Positions 21,043 to 63,811 of a stretch of 64,000 nt of DNA are shown here, piece by piece (the first letter of the stretch is position 1; every line of letters starts with the position of its first letter). Both the position numbers and the translations under genes were made by a program. The stretch spans positions 124,001-188,000 of the forward strand of contig JAFTVE010000013.1 in assembly GCA_017465905.1 (NCBI GenBank), read 5' to 3'. The stretch comes from Bacteroidaceae bacterium (GTDB lineage: Bacteria > Bacteroidota > Bacteroidia > Bacteroidales > Bacteroidaceae). The notes beneath the pieces were generated by a model. That model was not told the origin of the DNA. It was given only the letters and a program-made list of their open reading frames with translations, and did not search any database.

Positions 21043-23031
21043 ATGCGAACTTTTGAAGAACTGGGTGTGATGCCCGAGATATGCGAAGCCATCAGCGAAC
21101 TGGGATTCGTGCAACCCATGCCCGTGCAGGAAGAGGTGATACCCTATCTGCTGGGCAATGGCAATGATGTGGTGGCGCTGGCACAGACAGGTACTGGCAA
21201 GACGGCAGCGTTCGGACTGCCCATCATACAGAAGGCCGACCCTACCCTGCCTTATGCGCAGGCACTCATCCTGAGTCCTACCCGCGAGCTATGCCTGCAG
21301 ATTGCCGATGACCTTGCCGCCTTCTCCAAGTATGTGGAGGGACTGCGCGTGGTACCCATGTATGGCGGCACCTCCATAGAAAACCAGATACGTAACGTGC
21401 GTCGCGGCGTACACATCATCGTGGCCACACCGGGCCGCCTCATCGACCTCATGGAGCGTGGCGTGGTGGACCTCTCCACCGTGCGCGATGTTGTGCTCGA
21501 CGAGGCCGACGAGATGCTCAATATGGGCTTCACCGACAGCATCAACCGCATCCTCGAGGATGTGCCTGCCGACCGCAACACACTGCTCTTCTCCGCCACC
21601 ATGAGCAAGGAGATTGCCGCTATTGCCAAGAATTACCTCACCGATGCCCACGAAATCGTGATAGGCAACAAGAACGAGGGTGCCAAGAACGTGAACCACG
21701 TATACTATATGGTGCACGCGAAGGACAAATACCTCGCCCTGAAGCGTATCGTCGACTACTACCCCCATATCTATGGCATCGTATTCTGCCGCACCCGTAT
21801 GGAGACGCAGGAGATAGCCGACAAGCTCATCCAGGACGGCTACAATGCCGATGCCCTGCACGGCGAACTGTCGCAACAGCAGCGCGACCTCACGATGCAG
21901 AAGTTCCGCAAGCGCCGCATCCAGCTCCTTGTAGCCACCGACGTGGCAGCACGCGGACTTGATGTGGACGACCTCACCCACGTCATCAACTACGGCCTGC
22001 CCGACGACACGGAGAACTACACCCACCGTAGCGGGCGCACCGGACGTGCCGGCAAGCGAGGCACCTCCATCGCCATCATCAACCTACGCGAGCGCGGCCG
22101 CATGCGCGAGATTGAGAAGGTCATCGGCAAGGAGTTCGTCAAGGGAACCCTGCCCACAGGCAAGGAGATTTGCGAAAAGCAGCTGTGGAAGGTGATTGAC
22201 GACATCGAGAAGACCGAGGTCAACGAAGCCGAGATAGCCGAGTTCCTTCCCGCCATATACCGCAAACTCGACTGGCTGGACAAGGAAGACATCATACGCC
22301 GCGTGGTGACCCGTGAGTTTGGCCGGTTCGTGGAATACTACAGCAATGCCCCCGAACCGGAGGCGGTCGTAGAAAGAAGTCAACGGACAAAAGACAACAG
22401 ACAACGGACAAAAGGCGAGGACGGGCCACGCCAACGCCGTGAAAAGGGCGATGGCCCCCGCAAGGCAGAGAAGGGCTATGTACGCTTCTTCGTGAACCGC
22501 GGCAAGCGCGACGGATTCTATGCCTCGCAAATCATCGATCTGGTGAACCGCCACGTGCGCCACGAGCGCATCGAGATGGGGCGCATCGACCTGATGCAGA
22601 ACTTCTCCTTCTTCGAGGTGCCCGAGCGTCAGGCCGACACGGTGACACGCGCCCTGAGCCACGCCCACGTGAACGGACAACACATCGTGGTGGAGCCTGC
22701 AGGAGAGGAGCAGCCTCCCCTAACCCCTCCCAAGGAGGGGGACTTCAAGCCTCGTGAAAAGAAAGGGCGCAAAGCTGATGAATTCACAGACGGCTTTGCC
22801 CGATTCGAGAAGAAGAACAAGAATCGCAATCCGCAAGGTCCTGCCCCCTCCGGGGGAGCTAAAGGCAGCCGCACCAAGCCCTCACGCGAAGAGCGCGGCT
22901 ACACCAGCAAGCGCGGTCCCATGAGGAAGGACGACTGGAAGCAATTCTTCCAGCACGACAACGACCTGCGCGGTCCCGAACCCGACTTCTCGGAAGAGGG
23001 CTGGGCACGACGCAAGCCGAAGAAGAAATAG
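21043..23031 (+). CDS. DEAD-box RNA helicase with DbpA-type RNA-binding domain
   Basis: 662 residues. Q motif (GFVQPMPVQ), Walker A AQTGTGKT at 47-54, PTRELC, DEAD in VLDEADEML, SAT, and HRSGRTGRAG. After the helicase core (about 1-375) lies a variable segment, then a DbpA-like RNA-binding domain (YVRFFVNRGKRDGFYASQII to about 545), then a basic tail. Likely acts in ribosome assembly or cold adaptation. The variable linkers are odd: 22375-22420 is a repetitive CAACGGACAAAAGACAACAG-type tract, and 22713-22741 encodes PPLTPPKEG from a dispersed palindrome. Confidence 0.95.
   Translation: MRTFEELGVMPEICEAISELGFVQPMPVQEEVIPYLLGNGNDVVALAQTGTGKTAAFGLPIIQKADPTLPYAQALILSPTRELCLQIADDLAAFSKYVEGLRVVPMYGGTSIENQIRNVRRGVHIIVATPGRLIDLMERGVVDLSTVRDVVLDEADEMLNMGFTDSINRILEDVPADRNTLLFSATMSKEIAAIAKNYLTDAHEIVIGNKNEGAKNVNHVYYMVHAKDKYLALKRIVDYYPHIYGIVFCRTRMETQEIADKLIQDGYNADALHGELSQQQRDLTMQKFRKRRIQLLVATDVAARGLDVDDLTHVINYGLPDDTENYTHRSGRTGRAGKRGTSIAIINLRERGRMREIEKVIGKEFVKGTLPTGKEICEKQLWKVIDDIEKTEVNEAEIAEFLPAIYRKLDWLDKEDIIRRVVTREFGRFVEYYSNAPEPEAVVERSQRTKDNRQRTKGEDGPRQRREKGDGPRKAEKGYVRFFVNRGKRDGFYASQIIDLVNRHVRHERIEMGRIDLMQNFSFFEVPERQADTVTRALSHAHVNGQHIVVEPAGEEQPPLTPPKEGDFKPREKKGRKADEFTDGFARFEKKNKNRNPQGPAPSGGAKGSRTKPSREERGYTSKRGPMRKDDWKQFFQHDNDLRGPEPDFSEEGWARRKPKKK
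22713..22741 (+). repeat. Half-copy of the GGCCTCC palindromic element inside the helicase gene
   Basis: GCCTCCCCTAACCCCTCCC followed by AAGGAGGGGG forms the left arm and hairpin of the element seen complete at 29033-29123 and 29453-29537. It is translated in frame as PPLTPPKEGD in the C-terminal linker. A related palindrome (CCCCCTCCGGGGGAGC) occurs at 22844-22859 in the same linker. Confidence 0.8.
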
Positions 23032-23072
23032 CGTTGCAAAGCAAAGGCAGGCTCCGTGGGGCCTGCCTTTAT

Positions 23073-23543
23073 TCATTCTATTACCTGACACTTGAGATTA
23101 CCGGGCACGTAGGAGATATGTATCCAGCGGCCGTCGCCCTCCCAAATGAGCTGGGTGAACTTGATGCGCCCCTCCTGCTGCATCTTCTGTATCATCTTGA
23201 ACAGCTTGCGGTGGTCGGTCCTGTTGCCCGCAATAATATCGGCTGCACAGCCGAGGATGTGGTGGCTGTTCTTCACGCCACCCACCAGGGCGTTGAGCTG
23301 CTTGCAGCGGTAGCCACTACTGATCACGATAGGCTCGCCCCACGCCTCGCGTATAGGGTCTAATAACTGGTCAACTAATACGTGCAGCAGGTGGTATGCA
23401 CATTTCGATGGGCGGTTGTCGATGCCCTCGCGCAGCGCCGTGGCGCTGGCGGTGAGCTCTTGTATAGAAAAATATGAGGCCTCCCCCCTGCCCCTCCCAA
23501 GGAGGGGAGATTCAGGCTTCGCGGTAGTGTTTGATGTTGTCAT
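23073..23543 (-). CDS. M15-type peptidase (D-Ala-D-Ala carboxypeptidase / endolysin-like)
   Basis: 156 residues. The Peptidase_M15_3 fold shows PIVISSGYRC, NSHHILGCAADI (zinc His and Asp) and RWIHISY (last zinc His). Such proteins cleave peptidoglycan peptides and occur both as phage endolysins and in Bacteroidales clusters with HU and smalltalk genes, as here. Residues about 9-22 (AKPESPLLGRGRGEAS) are translated from the left arm of a dispersed palindrome, and the ATG itself lies within the element at 23478-23624. A real start further in (around residue 25) cannot be excluded. Confidence 0.85.
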   Translation of the reverse strand: MTTSNTTAKPESPLLGRGRGEASYFSIQELTASATALREGIDNRPSKCAYHLLHVLVDQLLDPIREAWGEPIVISSGYRCKQLNALVGGVKNSHHILGCAADIIAGNRTDHRKLFKMIQKMQQEGRIKFTQLIWEGDGRWIHISYVPGNLKCQVIE

Positions 23544-23624
23544 GGCTCTTTCTTATAGTTATGGTAAGTGATTTGCAGCGATGCCCGTAGCCCCCTCTCC
23601 TTGGGAGAGGGATGGGGTGAGGCC
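23478..23624. repeat. GGCCTCC palindromic element with expanded core (copy E2)
   Basis: Left arm GGCCTCCCCCCTGCCCCTCC plus AAGGAGGGG (23478-23507), core containing TTCGCGG and GCGATGCC words, right arm CCCCTCTCCTTGGGAGAGG ending GTGAGGCC (23617-23624). The 5' end of the M15 gene lies in the core and left arm. Confidence 0.8.
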
Positions 23625-23711
23625 TCACTTTACGCGATAAGTGTGAGTGCGCTGCCGAGTAGCAGCAGCGCACGGAACAATGTACTCATAGTCCACACAT
23701 TTAATTGTCAA

Positions 23712-23816
23712 TTAAGCAGTGCAGGAGGCTACGCCCAAGGCACCAGCCAGGGCGGTGAGTACGGTGATTACGATTTTAAGGATTTGTTTCCAGTTGATTT
23801 GAGTTTTTGAGTTCAT
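23712..23816 (-). CDS. Smalltalk-type small membrane protein
   Basis: 34 residues: begins MNSKTQINWKQILKIVITVL and continues with a hydrophobic TALAGALGVA stretch and a terminal SCTA. This fits the short Bacteroidetes 'smalltalk' family: a W-K-x-I-L-K-I start, one transmembrane helix and a small tail. It lies between an HU gene and the M15 gene, as in many Bacteroidales genomes, and a close relative follows the second HU gene at 44732-44821. Function unknown. Below common ORF length cut-offs, so easily missed. Confidence 0.8.
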   Translation of the reverse strand: MNSKTQINWKQILKIVITVLTALAGALGVASCTA

Positions 23817-23817
23817 A

Positions 23818-23912
23818 AGTTTTTTAGTTTTTTAGTTTTTAAGTTTATGAGTTGGTGAGTACTGGAGTCTGTCATCTGACAAACTTAAAAACTCACCAAC
23901 TCAAAAACTCAC
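23818..23912. repeat. AGTTTTTAAGTTT / GAGTTGGTGAGT inverted repeat between smalltalk and HU
   Basis: GAGTTGGTGAGT (from 23849) is matched by ACTCACCAACTC (23894-23905), and AGTTTTTAAGTTT by AAACTTAAAAACT. The RNA would fold into a long AT-rich hairpin between the HU stop and the smalltalk start, possibly a weak terminator that lowers smalltalk expression. Confidence 0.55.
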
Positions 23913-23920
23913 TTTACTCC

Positions 23921-24337
23921 TTACACCTCCGCGGCGATGCGGTTCAGCGAGAGCTTGCTGGCAATCTCCTTCTTCAGCGCCACCTCGGGGCGGAAGAGGA
24001 TGCGGTGGCCCTTGATCATCGAGGAGGGAGTGAAGTCACTGGCAGCCATCGTGTCCTGCGAGAAACACTTGCTCTGCAGCGAGATCTGGAATCGGCCCAG
24101 GTCCTCGAGCACTACGGCACGGCCGGCGAGCAGCGCCTTGGTGATGTAGGGCTTGATGACGGCCAGCACGGCCTGTGCATCGGGCTTGGTCACGGTGGTG
24201 GAGAAGCTGATGTCTTCGGCCAGCTCGTCGAAGGTGTAGTCATTGGTCTTGATGGCACGGCACGCATAGTAGGTGGTACCTTCCACGGCATTCTTGCCGG
24301 GGTTCTTACATTTTCTTACAGCATAGTTTACGCTCAT
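23921..24337 (-). CDS. HU-family DNA-binding protein (Bacteroidales long form)
   Basis: 138 residues from ATG 24337 (MSVNYAVRKCKNPGKNAVEG); the reading from 24370 translates the palindromic element and is rejected. The HU-like core contains VVLEDLGRFQISLQSKCFS and FTPSSMIKGHRILFRPE. Longer than E. coli HU (90) because of an N-terminal extension, as in the HU genes next to smalltalk in this order. Probably a nucleoid-type DNA bender. A paralogue with the same architecture lies at 44821-45234. A palindromic element begins 12 bases upstream of the start. Confidence 0.85.
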   Translation of the reverse strand: MSVNYAVRKCKNPGKNAVEGTTYYACRAIKTNDYTFDELAEDISFSTTVTKPDAQAVLAVIKPYITKALLAGRAVVLEDLGRFQISLQSKCFSQDTMAASDFTPSSMIKGHRILFRPEVALKKEIASKLSLNRIAAEV

Positions 24338-24348
24338 AGTAGTAGGGT

Positions 24349-24542
24349 GGCCTCCCCCAACCCCTCCCAAGGAGGGGCTTTCCCGTCATCGCGGAACAGG
24401 GAGGACTTTTTTTAGGTTAATGGTTTAGGTTAATGATTCACAGTGCGCACTTGCCTCGTTTTCTCCTCTCCTATGGTTCGGAACTATGCAGTTCGCGCGA
24501 TGCCTGCAAGCCCCTCTCCTTGGGAGAGGCGGGGGAGAGGCC
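24349..24542. repeat. GGCCTCC palindromic element with long core (copy E3)
   Basis: Left arm GGCCTCCCCCAACCCCTCCC plus AAGGAGGGG with GTCATCGCGGAAC (24349-24397), right arm GTTCGCGCGATGCCTGCAAG, then CCCCTCTCCTTGGGAGAGG and terminal GAGAGGCC (24535-24542). About 95 bp of unrelated AT-richer sequence, including two GGTTAATG words, separates the two halves. It forms the region upstream of the HU gene. Confidence 0.8.
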
Positions 24543-24636
24543 CCCTTTATTTACACTGCAAAGTTACGACCTCCGCCCCCTCTCATAGTACCGCGGGAGT
24601 CACCCTGCGAAAAAGGAAAAACAAATGCTCAGGACA

Positions 24637-24668
24637 TTTGCTTTTCTCGCCGATTTTTCGTATCTTTA
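24637..24668 (+). promoter_or_regulatory. Promoter of the DUF4248-like gene
   Basis: -33 TTTG at 24637-24640, 20-base spacer, -7 TATCTTTA at 24661-24668 (one mismatch to TAnnTTTG); leader of about 35 bases to ATG 24711. Confidence 0.6.
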
Positions 24669-24710
24669 CATAATAATAATCAGTGATTTATCCTTTTGAT
24701 TCTTAAGTCT

Positions 24711-24953
24711 ATGAAACCATTTTTCGATGATGATGAGGAGCGCACCGCCGTGCGTTCCTACACGAAGGGCGAACTGGCACGAATGTATTCGCCCGGTGCC
24801 AAGTATGAGAGTGCCATCCGCATGCTCAACCGCTATCTGCATCGCTGCCGTGGCTTGCTCGACGAGCTTATGGCCATGGGCTACCGCCCCGATGACCGCC
24901 GCTTTACGCGGCCTCAGGTGCAACTGATCTTCGAATACTTGGGGGAGCCGTAG
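24711..24953 (+). CDS. DUF4248-like small protein
   Basis: 80 residues from ATG 24711. KGELARMYSPGAKYESAIRM followed by a helical segment and RPDDRRFTRPQVQLIFEYLG at the end is the pattern of the DUF4248 family (about 75-85 residues, a probable winged or helix-turn-helix DNA-binding fold), found beside HU, smalltalk and DUF3987 genes in Bacteroidales. Strongly charged, no signal peptide. Probably a small regulator of the surrounding cluster, but this is inference. Confidence 0.7.
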   Translation: MKPFFDDDEERTAVRSYTKGELARMYSPGAKYESAIRMLNRYLHRCRGLLDELMAMGYRPDDRRFTRPQVQLIFEYLGEP

Positions 24954-24960
24954 GGGGGGA

Positions 24961-25125
24961 AGAGGGAATTGCTAACGGTGATCAGGGTTATTAGGGGCGA
25001 TTAGGGTAATTAGAGGTGATTAAGGGCAATTAAGGGCTGGTAGAGGCAGTTCTGGCCAGAAACATTACTGGCCCCTAATGACCTCTAATAACCGTTAATT
25101 GCCTTTACCAGTCCTTGCCAGCCAG
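24961..25125. repeat. Palindromic TTAGGGG-type array A
   Basis: Left part: words such as ATTAGGGGCG, ATTAGGGTA, ATTAGAGGTG and ATTAAGGGC succeed each other about every 10 bases. Then a core GGCAGTTCTGGCCAGAA (25044-25060, with perfect palindrome TTCTGGCCAGAA), then the inverse CCCCTAATG, CTCTAATAA, GTTAATTGCC words. The 43-base segment 25037-25079 recurs with one mismatch at 25855-25897 on the other side of the four-helix-bundle gene. Confidence 0.85.
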
Positions 25126-25129
25126 CCCG

Positions 25130-25678
25130 CTAATACCCTCTTCTCTCCTTTCTCACTCGTGTGAGCTTCTCGCGGAATCCGCCCTCTTGGGTGAAGCGTT
25201 CTGCTATAGTCTGCAGGTATTTGTATAGCAGGTAGTCGTTCTGTTTGATGAGTACGATGGCGAGGTTGGCGATGGTCTCGTCGCCGCGTGTAGCGGCGAG
25301 CTCCATCCAATAGGCAACATCGCAATGTTCGCGCCCGATGCGCTGTGCTGCAGCCAGTTCCTTGCTTCCCTGTTCCCATTGTCGCAATCCCCTCACACGC
25401 AAGTAGTCCTCGTAATCGGCGAGGAGCTCCAGTGCGCTGGCCTTAGCCACATTGAACAGCTTCAGCTCTGTCTCCACCGAGGTAGCACCGGCTGTATACC
25501 CCTCCACGATATTCTGCTTTGCCGACCGTGCCGCCTGCACCATCTGGTCGATGGTGCGGTCACCCCTCTTGAGGTAGCGTTCCGCAAAGAGGTAGGTGAG
25601 ATCATAGATAATCATGGATTTCTGATAACAGATAAGCTCCTCTATCTTCTTGCTGCCACGGTTGGGGATGATGTTCAT
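25130..25678 (-). CDS. Four-helix-bundle protein (S23/IVP-like, with suffix domain)
   Basis: 182 residues. LICYQKSMIIYDLTYLFAER, then DQMVQAARSAKQNIVEGY, SVETELKLFNVAKASALELL and the closing DYEDYLRVRG match the four-helix-bundle family of 23S rRNA intervening-sequence proteins and Avd. The extended C-terminus after about residue 115 fits the form with an extra 'suffix' domain. Avd binds nucleic acid and the reverse transcriptase of diversity-generating retroelements, but no reverse transcriptase is present here. The gene is bracketed by nearly identical palindromic arrays (A and B), suggesting that gene and repeats travel together. Function unknown. Confidence 0.82.
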   Translation of the reverse strand: MNIIPNRGSKKIEELICYQKSMIIYDLTYLFAERYLKRGDRTIDQMVQAARSAKQNIVEGYTAGATSVETELKLFNVAKASALELLADYEDYLRVRGLRQWEQGSKELAAAQRIGREHCDVAYWMELAATRGDETIANLAIVLIKQNDYLLYKYLQTIAERFTQEGGFREKLTRVRKERRGY

Positions 25679-25773
25679 GGTTGATAGCGATTGGTTGTGA
25701 AAATGCTCTTGATCATTGCAAATATAGGTAATTATCTGTTACTTGCAGCCTCGCGTGGGAGTTTTTTTAAGAT

Positions 25774-25984
25774 TGGGGGGGATTTTTTGGGGGGGAATCA
25801 GGGGTTATTAAGGGAAATTAGGGGCTATTAGGGGTAATTAGGGGCGATTAAGGGCTGGTAGAGGCAGTTCTGGCCAGAAACACTACTGGCCCCTAATAAC
25901 CCCTAATCGCCTTTAATTCCCTGCAGTGAGTGGCATCCCCTAATAGCCCCTACCTGCCCCTAATCTCCCCTAATCCCCATCACC
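25774..25984. repeat. Palindromic TTAGGGG-type array B
   Basis: G-rich half (GGGGTTATTA, AATTAGGGGCTATTAGGGG, with about 10-base spacing), the same core as array A (CTGGTAGAGGCAGTTCTGGC to TACTGGCCCCTAAT, 25855-25897), then a C-rich half of CCCCTAAT words reaching 25980. The last 25 bases overlap the 3' end of the coiled-coil gene on the minus strand. Confidence 0.85.
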
Positions 25985-26589
25985 TTCTTCATCACCGACG
26001 CCACGTCGTAGTGGCGGTGGTAGGTGGCTGCAGGCACCTTGTGGGCGAGCGAGGGCCAGTGCTCGAAGGGCTTCTCGAAGATGGTGCCTGCGATGGCCTT
26101 CAGCGAGCTGAGCTTGAGCGGTACACGCATCTTGTCCATGCCGCGGGCCGTCATGACCTTCACGAACTGCGTGTACCCTGCGGGGTAGTCGAGATGGTCC
26201 ACCAGGATGCGGTATATGCCCCACCACTGGCGCCCCATGGTGATGAGCGGCTCGCCGTTGTTGTCGGTCATGGCCATGAGCTCGGCGATGGCGGCATCCA
26301 CGCGCACCTCCTCCTCGCTGCCTGCATGCTCCTCATACATGTAGAGCAAGCGTTGCATGCTTTCGCAGCGGTCGAGCAGTTCGTCGTAGCTGCGCTGCCA
26401 CTCCGCGACATCGGTCTTCAGCTCATCGATGATGCGGCCCTGATGGGACACCTGTGCCTCGGCCAGCTCCCGCCGCGAGCGTTCCATATGCAGCTCGTCC
26501 TGCTGCGAGCGTATGGTCTGCTGCAGCTGGGCAATGTCGCGCTCGTGGCGCAGGTCGGCGAAACTCTTGGTCGGGGCAGTCTTTTTCAT
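25960..26589 (-). CDS. Coiled-coil protein of unknown function
   Basis: 209 residues, family not recognised. Residues 15-90 are strongly charged and heptad-like (RHERDIAQLQQTIRSQQDEL, then ERSRRELAEAQ), a probable coiled coil. The second half (about 95-205) is a compact domain with ITMGRQWWGIYRILVDHLDY and HWPSLAHKVPAATYHRHYDV. No signal peptide or membrane segment. The final residues GIRGD and the stop are read from a TTAGGGG array, so the natural C-terminus may have been altered by the repeat. Minus strand between array B and the DUF3987 gene. Possibly part of the mobile locus. Confidence 0.6.
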   Translation of the reverse strand: MKKTAPTKSFADLRHERDIAQLQQTIRSQQDELHMERSRRELAEAQVSHQGRIIDELKTDVAEWQRSYDELLDRCESMQRLLYMYEEHAGSEEEVRVDAAIAELMAMTDNNGEPLITMGRQWWGIYRILVDHLDYPAGYTQFVKVMTARGMDKMRVPLKLSSLKAIAGTIFEKPFEHWPSLAHKVPAATYHRHYDVASVMKKVMGIRGD

Positions 26590-26699
26590 GGCGATAAGGG
26601 TTAATCAATCAATCAATTGAGGTCGAACAGGAAGATGTGCTGCAAAGGTATATAATATTCCCCAATCGGCCACATCTGCAGGAGCGAAAAATACAGTGC

Positions 26700-26727
26700 A
26701 AAAGCGAGCTTTTTTTGGCTCGCTTTT
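26700..26727. terminator. Perfect AT-tract hairpin, possible bidirectional terminator
   Basis: AAAAGCGAGC (26700-26709) and GCTCGCTTTT (26718-26727) pair perfectly around a loop of T's. The flanking genes are divergent, so it may instead end an unseen small RNA. Confidence 0.5.
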
Positions 26728-26821
26728 ACCCTTGCCGAAGGCTCAAAATCGGAAAGCAAACCCGAAAGCAGACTTCCCCCCACAACCCTTTGAGAAGTGC
26801 CCCCACATGCCTAACTTTGCA

Positions 26822-26883
26822 CTACCCCTAATGCCCCCTAATAGCCCCTAATAGCCCTTAATATCCCCTAATCCCCCCTAACA
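26822..26883. repeat. CCCCTAAT array C
   Basis: CCCCTAATG, CCCCTAATAG, CCCCTAATAG, CCCTTAATAT and CCCCTAATCC words follow each other every 10-11 bases; same repeat type as arrays A and B but only the C-rich half is present. It lies in the 621-bp gap between the coiled-coil gene and the DUF3987 gene. Confidence 0.75.
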
Positions 26884-26904
26884 AAAAAAACCCATGAACA
26901 CTCC

Positions 26905-27090
26905 CAAAAACGCCTATCCCTTTTTCAGAAATCGCCTATCCCATTTTGCAGAATCGCACTTGCCTTTTCTGAAAATCGCCTATGCGATTTTCGGCTCTTG
27001 CCGCTGCGGCATCGGGTATTGGATATTCCCGCGCGTTTCCGCCATTGCGCTGCCAGTGGCATGGTTACCTTCGGTCGGCAGGCGAACTTT
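26905..27090 (+). repeat. Dispersed repeat copy 1 with four 22-bp dyad units
   Basis: Four exact 22-base units: 26905-26926, 26927-26948, 26949-26970 and 26971-26992. The last is a perfect dyad with arms GAAAATCGC and GCGATTTTC around CTAT; the others keep CGCCTATCCC or CGCACTTGCC centres. A shared tail with CGGCATCGGGTATTGGATAT and GGTTACCTTCGGTCGGCAGG ends at GCGAACTTT (27090). A near-identical copy lies at 63626-63811 and a shorter diverged one at 45295-45338. Confidence 0.85.
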
Positions 27091-27121
27091 GCTAACGTGC
27101 TGTATTGTAGCTGATTGATGG

Positions 27122-27151
27122 TAGTTAGTGGCGTTGACGCCACTTCTTAAC
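27122..27151 (+). repeat. Left 30-bp inverted repeat of the DUF3987 gene
   Basis: TAGTTAGTGGCG (27122-27133) to GCCACTTCTTAAC (ending 27151), with an internal palindrome GTGGCGTTGACGCCAC. It is repeated in inverted orientation at 28722-28751, differing only at the two central bases. Exactly 31 bases outside each copy lies a GCGAACTTT box pointing the same way relative to the repeat. Confidence 0.85.
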
Positions 27152-27210
27152 TCTTTTTTCTGACAAACCTTAAGTAAATATCGACATAACCTTTTAATCT
27201 ACATTGCTTT

Positions 27211-28752
27211 ATGAATACGCAAGAAATCATCCCACTTCTTGGCCAGCTCGATGGCCCGAAGCCTACACTGGAAGAGTTGAACACCTATGTTGACGATGCC
27301 GGTCATCGCCTTCCCCGGCCACTCGACCAGACCTTCTTCGACCGCCTGCCACCCCTCATCACCGATGTGCTGGCACACTATGCCACTTCCCCCATGCGCA
27401 TCCAGCAGCTGCTGGCCTTGCTCACCCTCATGGGCACGGTGACCATCCACTGCCGCGTGAGGCACGACAACCGCTACTACGGTACGGCACTCATGACGCT
27501 CATCTTTGGCTCTCCCGCCTCGGGCAAGGGTAGCATCACCGACCTGCTCCCCTTGGTGCAGGGTATCGACCGCAAGGTGCGGGCCGACAGCCGCCGCGAC
27601 ATACGCCGTGCCCAACGTCTCATCGAGGTGCAGCGCCTCAAACGCCAACGCATGGGCCGTAGCCGCGACATGAATGAGGCCGACATCGAGCGTGCCGTCA
27701 TGAGCGAAGACGATATCGAGGTGCCCATGCCCCGCTGCCATATGATAGCCGACAACATCACCGTGCCTGCCATGCTGCAATACCTCAAGGGCTATGAGCC
27801 GCATGCCCCCTTGCTCGCTGCCAGCGAGCTGCTCACCATCGTGCAGCAGGCCAAGACCGACTTTGGCAACATGCGCGACCTGCTCCTGCGTGCCTTCCAC
27901 GAGGAGCCCATGAGCTATGCCATCAAGACCGGGCATGAGAGCATCTACCTGGAGCATGTGCGCCTGGGTGTACTGCTCAGCGGCACCTACGACTCGCTGC
28001 GCCTGTTCATGCCCACCGTGAGCGACGGCCTGCCCTCGCGCTTCCTCTTCTATGAGACCCCCAGCAACACCGCGTGGCGCACGGCGATGACACCCGATGA
28101 GAGTGCGGCGTTCAACACCACGCTGCGTCATACGGCAGGCGTCTTCGACAGCTTGCATGGCCTGCTCACCCGCTACGACAACAGCCACGAGGCCACCCCA
28201 CGCCCCACGCTTGTGCTCACGGCCATGCAGGAGGAGTATCTGGAGCATGCCTTCAGCGAGATGAACGACTGGTATCTGGGTTACACCGCCAGCGAAGAGA
28301 TACTCTCGGCTGTGCGCCGCCGCATCATCGATGCCAAGCGCATCATCATGCTGCTCTCCCTGTTGCGTGCCTACCATCGCCACGACTCGTGGGACGAGGC
28401 ATTGGCATCGCCCCATATCGTGGCCGATGACGACGACATCGACACCACCCTCATGCTTGTCGACTATCTCATGCGCCACAGCGTGGCGGCCTTCCGTCTC
28501 ATACAGCCCCACCGCCCCGACGACGACCTCCCCGAGGAGTTCACCCCCATGCTCCATCTCGACATGCTGCCATCTACCTTCACTACGGCCGAGGCCATAG
28601 ACGTGGGCAAGCACGGCGCCTTGTCGGAGAGCGCCACCAAGCGTCGCATCCGAAACTGGGCCAATGCGAAGTTTATCAAAAAGTTAGAACGCGGAAAATA
28701 TGCCAAGTGTATGCAAAAACAGTTAAGAAGTGGCGTTGACGCCACTAACTAA
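27211..28752 (+). CDS. DUF3987-like P-loop ATPase (primase/helicase-like)
   Basis: 513 residues. Walker A GSPASGKGS at 100-108 lies in a DUF3987-like core (about 40-400) with PRCHMIADNITVPAMLQYL and RLGVLLSGTYDSLRLFMPTV, the family's ATPase region. DUF3987 proteins occur in replication modules of plasmids, phages and integrated elements, next to primase-like proteins, as here. The C-terminal LRSGVDATN is encoded within the right 30-bp inverted repeat. Downstream is a DUF6371-like zinc-finger protein, probably in the same transcript. Role in replication of a mobile element is inferred. Confidence 0.78.
   Translation: MNTQEIIPLLGQLDGPKPTLEELNTYVDDAGHRLPRPLDQTFFDRLPPLITDVLAHYATSPMRIQQLLALLTLMGTVTIHCRVRHDNRYYGTALMTLIFGSPASGKGSITDLLPLVQGIDRKVRADSRRDIRRAQRLIEVQRLKRQRMGRSRDMNEADIERAVMSEDDIEVPMPRCHMIADNITVPAMLQYLKGYEPHAPLLAASELLTIVQQAKTDFGNMRDLLLRAFHEEPMSYAIKTGHESIYLEHVRLGVLLSGTYDSLRLFMPTVSDGLPSRFLFYETPSNTAWRTAMTPDESAAFNTTLRHTAGVFDSLHGLLTRYDNSHEATPRPTLVLTAMQEEYLEHAFSEMNDWYLGYTASEEILSAVRRRIIDAKRIIMLLSLLRAYHRHDSWDEALASPHIVADDDDIDTTLMLVDYLMRHSVAAFRLIQPHRPDDDLPEEFTPMLHLDMLPSTFTTAEAIDVGKHGALSESATKRRIRNWANAKFIKKLERGKYAKCMQKQLRSGVDATN
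28722..28751 (-). repeat. Right 30-bp inverted repeat of the DUF3987 gene
   Basis: Inverted copy of 27122-27151: GTTAAGAAGTGGCG (from 28722) to GCCACTAACTA (28751). 28 of 30 bases match; the central dinucleotide differs. It overlaps the last codons of the DUF3987 gene, and a GCGAACTTT box on the minus strand lies 31 bases further out (28783-28791). Confidence 0.85.
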
Positions 28753-28838
28753 GGTAAAGCGTCTGACCTGCAATGAATTACAAAAGTTCGCTCCCCGAAC
28801 TTTCCATCAACTGTCATCCCCAAACTCAAAAACTCGAT

Positions 28839-29846
28839 ATGCGTTACCGATTAGCCACCTACCGCGAGTGCAAGGCACACCGCGAATGGAACACCACCTG
28901 CCCTTCGTGCGGGCGCCGTGGCAAGTTCTCCCCCTACATCGACACCGCGACCATGCGCCCCGTCGACGACCGCCAATGCGGCCGCTGCAACCGCCTCTCC
29001 AACTGCGGATACCACCTGCCGCCGAGGATGCTGGCCTCCCCCAATCCCCTCCCGAAGAGGGGGCTTGCAGAGTCCGCGATGTCTGCAGCTCCCTCCCTTC
29101 GGGGGAGGGCGGGGGGAGAGGCCGCATTTTATGAGAAGATGCGCCGCGCCTGCGAGCAGTCGCAGCCCTGGGGCAGCCATCTGGTGACCTGGCTGCGCAC
29201 CCGCTTCCCTCGCGAGCAGGTGGCCGCCGCACTGAAGCGCTACCGCGTGGGCGGCACACCCGACGGAACCACCCTCTGGTGGCAGATCGACGAGCAGGGA
29301 CGCGTGCACACCGGAAAGGCCATGCAGTATAATCCCCTTACAGGACACCGCGTGAAGGAGCAAGGATTCCCTGTCAACTGGGCACACCGCATGCGCCTCT
29401 ATGGCGAGCCGTCCGAACTGGTGGTGGAGCAATGCCTGTTTGGAGAACATTTGGCCTCCCCCCTGCCCCTCCCAAGGAGGGGTGACTCGAACACCGCGAT
29501 GCAAGATTCCCCTCCCTGGGAGGGGTTAGGGGAGGCCCCCCTTTGTCTTGTCGAAAGCGAGAAGACCGCCCTCATCATGAGTTTGATAAAGCCCGACTGC
29601 GTGTGGCTCGCCACCGGCGGCAAGGCAAACTTCAAGGAGTCGATGCTCGCGCCCCTGCTCGGCCACGAGGTCGCCGTATACCCCGATGCCGATGCCCTCA
29701 CGGATTGGTACGCCCGCGCCGTGGGGATGAACCGCACCCTCGGCACACGCCTCCACATCCCCACCTGGTACTACGACCTGATGAACCACGACGAAGCACG
29801 CCGCGCAGGATGGGACCTGGCGGACGTTATTTTGTGGAAAGAGTGA
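28839..29846 (+). CDS. DUF6371-like zinc-finger protein with Toprim-like half, carrying two repeat insertions
   Basis: 335 residues from ATG 28839 (MRYRLATYRECK); an earlier ATG at 28773 lies in the inverted-repeat region. CPSCGRRGKFSPYID (C21, C24) with CGRCNRLSNCGYH (C47, C50, C56, H59) forms a primase-type zinc finger, and LVESEKTALIMSL with ATGGKANF resembles the Toprim/primase half of DUF6371 proteins. Two dispersed palindromes are translated in frame as residues about 65-95 (PNPLPKRGLAES...) and about 205-233 (PLPLPRRGDSNT...), between the zinc finger, middle and Toprim-like parts. No stop is introduced. Whether the protein still works is unknown. Confidence 0.72.
   Translation: MRYRLATYRECKAHREWNTTCPSCGRRGKFSPYIDTATMRPVDDRQCGRCNRLSNCGYHLPPRMLASPNPLPKRGLAESAMSAAPSLRGRAGGEAAFYEKMRRACEQSQPWGSHLVTWLRTRFPREQVAAALKRYRVGGTPDGTTLWWQIDEQGRVHTGKAMQYNPLTGHRVKEQGFPVNWAHRMRLYGEPSELVVEQCLFGEHLASPLPLPRRGDSNTAMQDSPPWEGLGEAPLCLVESEKTALIMSLIKPDCVWLATGGKANFKESMLAPLLGHEVAVYPDADALTDWYARAVGMNRTLGTRLHIPTWYYDLMNHDEARRAGWDLADVILWKE
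29033..29123. repeat. Complete GGCCTCC palindromic element inside the DUF6371 gene (copy E4)
   Basis: 91 bases: terminal GGCCTCCCCC and GGGGAGAGGCC, inner hairpins CCCCTCCCGAAGAGGGGG and CCCTCCCTTCGGGGGAGGG, and a core CTTGCAGAGTCCGCGATGTC followed by TGCAG. The whole element is an imperfect palindrome. Confidence 0.88.
29453..29537. repeat. Complete GGCCTCC palindromic element inside the DUF6371 gene (copy E5)
   Basis: 85 bases: GGCCTCCCCCCTG, hairpin CCCCTCCCAAGGAGGGG, core with ACCGCGATGCAAG, hairpin CCCCTCCCTGGGAGGGG, end GGGGAGGCC. Same design as E4 at a second in-frame position of the same gene. Confidence 0.88.
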
Positions 29847-29883
29847 AGATACTCACGCTCATAGCAAAAAGCTCAAGTATTCT

Positions 29884-29908
29884 CCGTATCTTTGCAAAAA
29901 AGATACGG
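29884..29908 (+). promoter_or_regulatory. Promoter -7 box inside a perfect 10-bp inverted repeat
   Basis: -7 TATCTTTG at 29887-29894 lies within CCGTATCTTT (29884-29893) and its inverse AAAGATACGG (29899-29908), spaced by 5 bases, ending 2 bases before the ATG at 29911. A repressor bound here would cover the start site; the RNA would form a hairpin next to the start codon. Confidence 0.6.
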
Positions 29909-29910
29909 AC

Positions 29911-30711
29911 ATGAATATAAAAAAGACTCTCTCGATCGTAGGATGTGGCAAACTGGGCAGTATCGTTGCCGATGCCATCCGCAATGGAATCCTCTCTGAA
30001 TATGAACTTATTGGAGTGTACTCCCGTACCCGTAGCAAGGCCGAGGCCTTGGCTGCACGCATGGCATGCGACAAGCAGGCACCTGCTGTGTGCGACAGCA
30101 TCGGTGAGTTGCTTGCCCTGAAGCCTGACTACATCGTGGAGGCTGCTTCGCCTGCAGCCATGCGCGAACTTGCCCTGCCGGCCCTGCGTGGCGGCTCCTC
30201 GGTGGTGACACTCTCCATCGGCGCTTTTGCCGATGATGCCTTCTATGCCGAGGTGATGCAGACGGCCAAGGCCTGCGGCACACATGTCTATGTGGTGTCG
30301 GGTGCGACCGGTGGCTTCGATGTGCTGCAAACGGCTACATTGATGGGCGGGGCTACGGCACGCTTCTTCAACGAGAAGGGTCCCAATGCCTTGCGTGGCA
30401 CGGCTGTATACGACGAGTCCCTGCAGACCGAGCAACGCACCGTGTTCACCGGTACAGCCAAGGAGGCAATAGCCATGTTCCCCACCAAGGTGAATGTGAC
30501 CGTAGCTGCTTCACGTGCCTCGGTAGGCCCAGAGCAGATGCATGTGACCATGCAGTCGACTCCCGGATTCGTGGGCGACACCCAACGGGTGGAAATCAAG
30601 AATGAGCAGGTGCATGCGGTCATTGATGTCTACAGCGCCACTGCCGAGATTGCAGGATGGTCGGTAGTGAGCACACTGCTCAATATTGCCTCGCCGATAG
30701 TGTTTATTTGA
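29911..30711 (+). CDS. L-aspartate dehydrogenase-like NAD(P) enzyme
   Basis: 266 residues. Rossmann motif GCGKLGSIVADA at 11-22, then the conserved VEAASPAAMRELALPALRGG and VVSGATGGFDVLQTATLMGG of the aspartate dehydrogenase family (NadX-like, DUF108), and a C-terminal GFVGDTQRVEI segment. Such enzymes convert L-aspartate to iminoaspartate (NAD synthesis) or ammonia and oxaloacetate. It is convergent with the following operon and overlaps the end of the D-2-hydroxyacid dehydrogenase-like gene by 8 bases. Family clear; physiological role inferred. Confidence 0.85.
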   Translation: MNIKKTLSIVGCGKLGSIVADAIRNGILSEYELIGVYSRTRSKAEALAARMACDKQAPAVCDSIGELLALKPDYIVEAASPAAMRELALPALRGGSSVVTLSIGAFADDAFYAEVMQTAKACGTHVYVVSGATGGFDVLQTATLMGGATARFFNEKGPNALRGTAVYDESLQTEQRTVFTGTAKEAIAMFPTKVNVTVAASRASVGPEQMHVTMQSTPGFVGDTQRVEIKNEQVHAVIDVYSATAEIAGWSVVSTLLNIASPIVFI

Positions 30712-31630
30712 GATACTCCCGGATGTTGTTCAGCACCTTCTCGCTCAGGCGGTCAAAGGCCTGGCGGGTTCGGCCGGTAGAGACATCGACGCATCGCACC
30801 TTAGGATGGCCGAGCAGATGACGGCCACCCAAGGCCCCTACGGTATCGCAATAGAGGCGGTTGTCGCCACCATCGAGCCACTGCAACAGTGCCGGCTCGT
30901 CCCATGCAGGCGACAGGCCGGTGTTGAACAGCACCTTGTGGTTGCCCAGATGCTGCATCTCCTCTTCGTGCAGGAGCACCGTATTCTTGTTGAGGCAGCA
31001 GAAGACAACCTCGCTCCACTCCAGTAACTCGGGCAGCGGCATGTAGCTGTAGCCCTTTTCCTTGGCAGCAGGCTTCTCGCCTCGGGCAAAATAGGCGATG
31101 TCGGCACCGAAGAAATGCATGGCATCGGCAATCATTCCACCCGACTTGCCAAGTCCCACGACACCCACCTTGAGTCCGGTGATTTCGCGGGGCATGCCCT
31201 CCCAAGGCTCTTCGCCGAAGCCGTGGAGCAGGCGCACCAGCTCGCTTGTCACATACTCGACAACACCCTCGTCGCCATAATCCCGAATACCGGTAACAGT
31301 GATGCCATGGGCCTCGGCGTAGCGGATATCTACATTGGCACTCTCGGGCGAATAGAGCGAGCAGCACATACCCACATATTTGATATGGGGGCATTGCGCC
31401 ATGATCTCGGCAGTGAGTGTTGAGGTATAGCTCAGCAGCACGGCATCGGCATCATCTATGCGCCTCACAATCTCTGCAGCATCTGCAGGGATGTCTTCGT
31501 GGAGCACAACCTCTTGGGCATAGTCATATAGCTTCCTCTCCGCTGACGGGATGAGGCTTACGGGTTCAATGGCAACAAGTTTTCTGAACATGGGATATTG
31601 CATATTAATGGTTTGTAAGAACTGTTTCAC
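30704..31630 (-). CDS. D-2-hydroxyacid dehydrogenase-like protein with altered catalytic residues
   Basis: 308 residues from GTG 31630, which overlaps the sulfatase stop by 4 bases (GTGA); ATG 31603 or 31591 (MFRKLVAIEP) are alternatives. The NAD-binding domain is clear (LKVGVVGLGKSGGMIADAMH). The catalytic Arg (usually NTSRG) is replaced in FNTGLSPAW, and neither the usual Glu nor the PHxxG His is visible near the C-terminus, so it may not act as a normal dehydrogenase. Last gene of the fucP-sulfatase operon. Confidence 0.75.
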   Translation of the reverse strand: MKQFLQTINMQYPMFRKLVAIEPVSLIPSAERKLYDYAQEVVLHEDIPADAAEIVRRIDDADAVLLSYTSTLTAEIMAQCPHIKYVGMCCSLYSPESANVDIRYAEAHGITVTGIRDYGDEGVVEYVTSELVRLLHGFGEEPWEGMPREITGLKVGVVGLGKSGGMIADAMHFFGADIAYFARGEKPAAKEKGYSYMPLPELLEWSEVVFCCLNKNTVLLHEEEMQHLGNHKVLFNTGLSPAWDEPALLQWLDGGDNRLYCDTVGALGGRHLLGHPKVRCVDVSTGRTRQAFDRLSEKVLNNIREYLK

Positions 31631-61279: not shown

Positions 61280-61354
61280 TTGTCATTCTGAACGCAGTGA
61301 AGAATCTCTGACAAGTACTGATTATGAGATTCTTCGCTACGCTCAGAATGACAA
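61280..61354. repeat. TCATTCTGA...TCAGAATGA inverted repeat
   Basis: Arm TTGTCATTCTGAACGCAGTG plus AAGAATCTC (61280-61308) and its near-inverse GAGATTCTTCGCTACGCTCA plus GAATGACAA (61326-61354), 17 bases apart. This is a repeat type seen between genes in many bacteria of this phylum. It may double as a terminator between the convergent rhaM and queG. Confidence 0.75.
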
Positions 61355-63625: not shown

Positions 63626-63811
63626 GAAAAATCGCACCTGCCATTATGAAAAAACGCCTATCCCTTTTCGCAGAATCGCACTTGCCATTTATGAAAATCG
63701 CCTATGCGATTTTCGGCCCCTGCCGCCGCGGCATCGGGTACTGGATATCCCGCACGTTCCTTCCCCTGCACTGCGAGTGGTAGGGTTACCTTCGGTCGGC
63801 AGGCGAACTTT
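63626..63811 (+). repeat. Dispersed repeat copy 3 with 22-bp dyad units
   Basis: Units at 63626-63647, 63648-63669, 63670-63692 (23 bases) and 63693-63714; the last is the same perfect dyad (arms GAAAATCGC and GCGATTTTC) as in copy 1. The tail CGGCATCGGGTACTGGATAT to GGTTACCTTCGGTCGGCAGG ends GCGAACTTT as in copy 1. The 63475-63963 gap holds this, a promoter and the repeat below. A 45-codon reading frame (MKKRLSLFAESHLPF...) spans it but is not called a gene. Confidence 0.85.

Follow-up and report, generated by a model that had tools for sequence, protein, structure and literature searches.

Palindromic elements in frame in a DUF6371 gene of Bacteroidaceae share their ends with a DUF559-family nuclease

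Introduction

Palindromic DNA lodged within bacterial reading frames is already on record in two guises. The palindromic elements of Rickettsia stand in frame in unrelated genes and add a short peptide to the product, as reported (PMC10969869), and some REPs of several bacteria lie in genes and encode 20-30 aa, their tags being GTAG or CGTC (PMC3733652). In the REP/BIME arrangement with RAYT, single hairpins and inverted doublets occur together with an enzyme gene bracketed by repeats.

The enzyme met in the present work belongs to DUF559, which we take to be the same family as COG2852. Nucleases of COG4636, another family of the same PD-(D/E)XK superfamily, have been proposed as selfish elements; the accessible text of that proposal reports no mobile-element association for them and makes no mention of COG2852 (PMC551604). 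A repeated segment of Legionella that carries a transposase and DUF559 acts as a recombination hotspot and, unlike the elements described here, has no palindromic ends named in the part of the report at hand (PMC12308824). In the literature searched, outside which lie bioRxiv preprints and most subscription journals, we found no DUF559 tied to palindromic ends.

The locus considered here, from a Bacteroidaceae genome, touches on both of these subjects. Its elements resemble REP/BIME with RAYT in that hairpins occur singly or as inverted doublets and the repeats also enclose a gene for an enzyme, and differ in that this enzyme is predicted to be a PD-(D/E)XK nuclease in place of the Y1 HUH transposase. 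They would form a separate class of element if mobilisation by DUF559 were proven.

Two palindromic elements within one reading frame

The window, i.e., the whole stretch of 64,000 nucleotides that was analysed, spans positions 124001-188000 of contig C48 in G000, a 2.84-Mb draft assembly of 54 contigs. A DUF3987 gene in it is followed by a gene that holds two palindromic elements:

28773..29846, plus strand: host gene, Zn_ribbon_16 and DUF6371, 357 aa (Pfam, ORF, homologue alignment)
29033..29123, plus strand: E4, double-hairpin palindromic element, in frame between zinc ribbon and DUF6371; core GCC..GGC of 89 nt
29453..29537, plus strand: E5, double-hairpin palindromic element, in frame directly before the VESEK motif; core GCC..GGC of 83 nt

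By its VESEK and PDADA motifs, the host is presumably a TOPRIM-primase-like protein. Pfam places Zn_ribbon_16 at 24-87 and the best stretch of DUF6371 from 136, with E4 in between; the positions of loops in this protein are deduced from such domain borders and from homologues. The first-pass annotation had described E4 and E5 as complete GGCCTCC...GGAGGCC palindromes that keep the frame, add no stop and give about 31 and 29 extra residues at apparent domain borders. The coordinates of both elements, the continuity of the 357-aa frame across them and their setting (E4 between the two domains, E5 immediately ahead of the conserved VESEK motif) are borne out. The termini hold for the 85-nt E5 and fail for the 91-nt E4, whose right end is GGAGAGGCC and whose termini do not form a perfect pair; likewise, E5 encodes 29 residues as claimed, and E4 encodes 30. 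By our own reading, E4 would take the place of a native linker and E5 that of about 10 residues, neither being a plain addition.

Each element consists of two inverted hairpin halves of about 46 nt, joined at a CGCGATG centre, and a common subtype of the half-element reads GGCCTCCCCCTGCCCCTCCCAAGGAGGGGTGAYTCAGACATCGC. Peptides such as LFGEHLASPLPLPR and GLGEAPLCLVESEK span the junctions of host and element. Folded as single-stranded DNA, E4 reaches a z of -3.19 and E5 reaches -4.85 and -5.07 on its two strands, with none of 200 dinucleotide shuffles equally good for either element. Rfam returned four matches in 22000-31000, all under the gathering score, of which mir-513 and whalefall-1 lie on E5.

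A dispersed family of half-elements

Further members of the same family, hereafter family A, lie upstream in the window:

22710..22755, plus strand: E1, single half-element, in frame in a long ORF with 558 aa before it and 91 aa after it; the ORF is presumably a DEAD-box helicase
23477..23522, plus strand: E2 left half, by our own reading at the start of a minus-strand gene that we take to be peptidase-like
23579..23624, minus strand: E2 right half; the E2 halves flank 56 nt
24347..24392, plus strand: E3 left half, upstream of a minus-strand gene, presumably HU-like
24498..24543, minus strand: E3 right half; the E3 halves flank 105 nt

The sequence between the E2 halves, as between the E3 halves, is short and holds no nuclease. 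Across the window's genome, BLAST with the E5 85-mer gave 34 matches at E<=1, in some cases on the two strands of a single place. With a covariance model of the half-element there were at least 38 matches at E<=1 and at least 34 at E<=0.01, these being lower bounds with 150 of 940 and 150 of 926 candidates scored; the model was built from 28 halves of G000 itself, which match by construction. By our own grouping the matches fall at 28 places. At 17 of these the element lies in a frame that continues for at least 53 aa on both sides (15 of 24 if the four places with E>0.01 are omitted), and the other 11 show no such continuing frame.

By our own count, family-A DNA recurs in 14 different G000 genes. 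Pfam confirms as hosts the DUF6371 gene, with E4 and E5, and a DUF4922-SpoIID gene, with three places. The remaining hosts, as far as their motifs allow us to assume, are an activase, two near-identical M15 peptidases, the DEAD helicase of E1, an alpha-2-macroglobulin, a 5'-nucleotidase, a ferredoxin, a Clp ATPase, RimO, an RNase H and a response regulator; one further gene with an in-frame element is unnamed. In placing a palindrome in frame in unrelated protein genes (17 of 28 places, 14 genes), the family is like the Rickettsia palindromic elements; it differs in residing in another host phylum, and the likeness is one of description and not of compared sequences.

Four copies at unlinked sites, namely those of E5, HemW, activase and M15, agree in a core of exactly 83 nt, and all 10 complete coding copies have core lengths of 2 mod 3, as being in frame requires. 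The compact form therefore seems to move as a unit. Around these 10 copies no direct flank match exceeds 4 nt, and the 4 nt concerned (GGCC) belong to the ends.

Different inserts at the same sites in related genomes

Since the added peptides occupy variable linkers and domain borders, one may ask if they are ordinary low-complexity linkers, or G/C-rich hairpins that are neither mobile nor inserted. The first-pass annotation had named normal protein regions as the alternative to insertion, and an alignment with nine homologues of the DUF6371 protein contradicts it: four (L028, L006, L009 and L010) do not have the E5 segment and five (L002-L005 and L012) carry other, unrelated segments at its site. 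The former homologues are distant and the latter closer. L004 has another palindrome family at the E5 site, the repeat nature of the segment having been checked for this one of the five, and L002 has the same family as L004 at the E4 site. The dispersal of copies, with the same DNA in 14 genes of G000 and also outside such frames, and the other inserts at the same loops in relatives speak against native linkers, which we regard as a highly improbable explanation.

Two further loops were read across genomes. That of HemW (13 genomes) holds a family-A element in G002, G004 and G007, a AACTTTCATC heptamer repeat in G000, G001, G013 and partly G010, and an ordinary linker in the others. That of SpoIID (16 genomes) is more varied: a nuclease-bearing element, taken up in the next section, is found in five (G000, G002, G004 and G007 with A ends, G006 with other ends); G001 shows just the ends, fused; an A/T-rich element with inverted heptamers occupies the loop of G013, G014 and G008, and one hairpin from a different family that of G016, G009 and G003; the loops of G012 and G010 are degenerate or repeat-like; and nothing was recognised in G015 and G005. 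Permissive loops thus hold different inserts in different species.

Among the loops read, which are hypervariable and often occupied by another repeat, no clean pre-insertion site was found, and no movement of the element was observed in the genomes compared. The DUF559 domain within UvrA of G017 is absent from G016, G009 and G003 (96-99% aa), with no clean target readable: the loop there holds other short sequence, which is repeat-like in G016 and G003. Nor was a clean target readable in the loops of HemW, RimO, activase, A2M, Clp, RNase H and ferredoxin; at RimO, several species share what seems to be the remnant of a decayed copy.

Family-A or related hairpins are themselves interrupted by a repeat like QPKVDARRGQSQG at L198, L286/L316 and G000:C44:48416-48494, and other sequence interrupts L100, the SpoIID element of G002, at its right end; hence, the elements nest.

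A DUF559 nuclease enclosed by the same ends

In G000 (C8:53112-53588), a DUF559 domain lies in frame between two element ends inside a SpoIID-like gene, matching PF04480 with 103.7 bits (gathering cut-off 20.6, E 6e-30). The Rickettsia-type in-frame palindromic insertion proposed at first, which the homologue alignment supports, is thus part of the picture, the same ends enclosing DUF559 nuclease elsewhere in the genome and in the genus. To our knowledge, the Rickettsia elements have no enzyme of their own, and they differ from the present ones in that here the same ends enclose DUF559, which can lie inside the host protein. As this is seen in the same genome and in the genus, the element gains a candidate enzyme.

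The genus yields 24 DUF559 matches in 14 of 19 genomes; with two weak ones in frames of about 980 aa (L086 and L094) set aside, 22 loci were counted. Eight lie inside a host protein (SpoIID five times, DegT aminotransferase twice, and UvrA), two are fused to the start of a gene, at the N-terminus, and 12 are free-standing. One of the free-standing genes (L088) holds a stop, and the SpoIID matches of G002 and G007 have one stop each, near an end, so that the integrity of some carrier genes is in doubt. All 22 aligned rows contain the motif DF..E-x-DG..H, and a search by sequence with a Bacteroidota DUF559 found the solved relative 3hrl; DUF559 is predicted to be a Vsr-like PD-(D/E)XK nuclease. 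Between G000 and G002 the SpoIID-fused nuclease has a Ka/Ks of 0.20 (host flanks 0.29 and 0.02), which shows purifying selection for the one usable pair, the others being saturated at synonymous sites.

An endonuclease domain in frame inside conserved host proteins recalls inteins with homing endonucleases, which differ from these elements with their hairpin ends and dispersed nuclease-less copies; no Hint or splicing domain was matched by Pfam in the eight fusion proteins, some of them cut by locus ends (limits 1e-3 and 1e-5). Like MITEs, the compact copies are short, have inverted ends, lack a gene and occur alongside less frequent relatives that code for an enzyme; they are set apart by the nature of that enzyme, a DUF559-family nuclease, and perhaps by their target sites, no duplication being seen beyond the GGCC of the ends in the 10 copies. 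Placement of the nuclease between two CGCG copies was considered and rejected: of the five SpoIID elements, only that of G006 has CGCG at both inner borders.

The ends recur around the nuclease throughout the genus. Flanking inverted repeats exceed all 200 shuffles at 20 of the 22 loci, and at the other two, L079 and L084 (the UvrA case), they do not rise above the maximum of 200 shuffles. An inverted-repeat score of at least 20 is reached at 20 of 22 loci versus 12 of 504 random positions drawn from 43 genus loci, and one of at least 27 at 15 of 22 versus 0 of 504. Several end families exist, and they diverge along with the nuclease: nuclease distance and end distance are correlated (Mantel r 0.61; none of 5000 permutations as high), the 22 loci not being independent, as five share the SpoIID site and two pairs a common locus by descent. 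Nearest nucleases that are at most 0.27 apart have ends at most 0.43 apart, and in 11 same-genome pairs nucleases at least 0.37 apart have ends 0.66-0.88 apart; some nearest nucleases (L074, L079 and L082) have unlike ends. In G011, the ends of DUF559 have 21-22 of 22 nt in common with the compact elements that occupy the E5 site of the DUF6371 gene in G011 and the E4 site of that in G013.

This correlation of ends and nuclease bears on the proposal that REP/RAYT- or Rickettsia-type palindromes are moved by an HUH or other enzyme, DUF559 being a passenger, or a gene for repair or defence, that can bear to be flanked by hairpins. The solo halves, doublets and enzyme-bearing units do recall the way in which REP, BIME and RAYT are arranged, REPs within genes that encode 20-30 aa are on record (PMC3733652), and a Caulobacter DUF559 protein has been proposed for mismatch repair (PMC12907096). 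Against it stand, besides the correlation, the outer ends of the halves. Inspection by eye showed GCCTC among the first bases of 27 of 28 halves (ACCTC in L048), GTAG or CGTC at the outer end of none of the 28, and CGTC further inside in two; both this missing tag and the 17 of 28 G000 places in continuing frames separate family A from REP/RAYT. Moreover, Y1_Tnp is present in 7 of 19 genus genomes, and under the pattern used the eight Y1 loci examined contain no family-A half. A Y1 transposase bracketed by family-A repeats was not found in these eight, with flanks of up to about 1.5 kb, and RAYT was rejected as the mover, since neither the Y1 protein of G000 (L067, 339 aa) nor the other seven loci have a family-A half; this search for a mover covered Y1_Tnp. 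We consider the proposal of another mover, with DUF559 as a passenger, distinctly unlikely.

In our reading, E4 and E5 are probably copies, devoid of the nuclease, of a mobile element that has palindromic ends, encodes DUF559 and would work in the manner of the Rickettsia elements and REP-RAYT with another enzyme. The full element would consist of a hairpin end, a DUF559 (Vsr-like PD-(D/E)XK) nuclease and an inverted hairpin end. Because the G/C-rich ends are poor in stop codons, a copy with a net length divisible by three would lengthen the host protein instead of breaking it, and in-frame copies would persist in loops and at domain borders, as in the DUF6371 gene. DUF559 would cut at the ends or at targets and so move both full and nuclease-less copies, the compact ones being presumably derived through loss of the nuclease. 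The data directly support the dispersed family with its ends, the enclosed nuclease in the same genome and open reading through both ends in hosts, along with purifying selection on one fused nuclease, the co-divergence of ends and nuclease and the different inserts in the same loops of relatives; mobilisation by DUF559 we infer from comparing sequences.

The nuclease is located at the junction between the halves of a compact copy, as would also be the case if the compact palindromes were older and moved otherwise, and DUF559 were a homing parasite that entered their centres, each nuclease tuned to one palindrome family. Co-divergence of ends and nuclease would agree with such homing, as would the large excess of nuclease-free halves (34 halves versus one DUF559 in G000) and a weak match to the PADLOC homing-endonuclease model (E 0.0047). 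We retain this account because a nuclease that had entered a compact palindrome would produce an identical pattern. It is at odds with the greater number of halves in nuclease-bearing genomes, a trend that relatedness confounds: genomes with an A-ended DUF559 (the close relatives G000, G002, G004 and G007) have, in ascending order of count, 30, 34, 57 and 66 halves versus 0-39 in 15 others (exact p 0.001), in a grouping set after the data were seen and with a model trained on G000. Exceptions to the trend are G010 (28 halves, no DUF559 match) and G006 (39 halves, other ends). Homing also needs another mover, and the eight Y1 transposase candidates of the genus whose loci were examined have no family-A half nearby; on balance, we judge it unlikely.

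DUF559 elements beyond the genus

DUF559 is present in 170 of 296 Bacteroidota genomes. Pfam places it within leucyl-tRNA synthetase (L153 and L156), methionine synthase MetH (L161) and HsdR (L158), and behind a GATase_5 domain (L167). A wider set of 42 loci (30 from Bacteroidota, 12 from plasmids) comprised 33 measurable ones and nine in which the script found no motif. At 18 of the 33 the ends exceed all 200 shuffles, including L158, L167 and loci from Azospirillum, Sphingomonas and Deinococcus. At the other 15 they do not rise above the maximum of 200 shuffles: LeuRS L153 and L156, MetH L161, L152, L163 and L166, together with L173, L177, L178, L221, L222, L224, L227, L229 and L230. At the LeuRS and MetH loci the ends may be worn or absent. 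One end family of Sphingomonas was located at 46 places, which are distributed over 11 plasmid records. For Deinococcus, the record itself contains a single occurrence of the ends, and a search of phage DNA with the Deinococcus DUF559 gene gave no match and was uninformative.

These observations lead us to propose, tentatively and as something near an even call, that DUF559 nucleases are the enzymes of a widespread bacterial class of hairpin-ended mobile elements in reading frames, riding inside UvrA, LeuRS and MetH, and that many of the G/C-rich palindromes repeated in Bacteroidota and in certain other phyla are their nuclease-less offspring and one source of new protein loops. This points to selfish DNA of a kind that has received little attention and that enlarges proteins from the inside. 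If true, protein-invading palindromes would gain a candidate enzyme, the presence of DUF559, a common nuclease of largely unknown role, inside conserved enzymes would be explained, and annotators would be warned off reading low-complexity peptides such as PLPLPRRG and SPLLGRGRGEA as native protein. The origin of such elements also becomes testable, given that the nuclease is small, that its ends are defined and that the loops of relatives are in some cases occupied and in others not.

In Sphingomonas parapaucimobilis (L225, 1424-1900), a DUF559 element lies between two transhydrogenase subunit genes, and its right end may be the ribosome binding site of the next gene.

Other repeats in the window

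The window contains several other repeats. Intergenic A/T-rich inverted heptamer repeats of the GAGTTTTT/AAAACTCA type occupy 23800-23911; similar heptamer elements lie in frame in the HemW, SpoIID and Clp loops of relatives and may constitute another family that invades proteins. The DUF3987 gene is bracketed by a 44-nt inverted repeat (GTGGCGTTGACGCCAC; 27122-27165 and 28708-28751, 86% complementary) that contains an inner hairpin and whose right copy encodes the last residues of the DUF3987 protein. Inverted arrays of a CCCCTAATNN decamer (25783-25844 and 26825-26886) surround a minus-strand ORF of 209 aa that has no Pfam match, and a palindrome, TTGTCATTCTGAACGCAGTGAAGAATCTC..., with arms 90% complementary, lies at 61280-61354. 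Finally, a direct repeat of about 185 nt links 26906-27090 with 63628-63811, 36.7 kb apart, the copies being 84-85% identical in two blocks.
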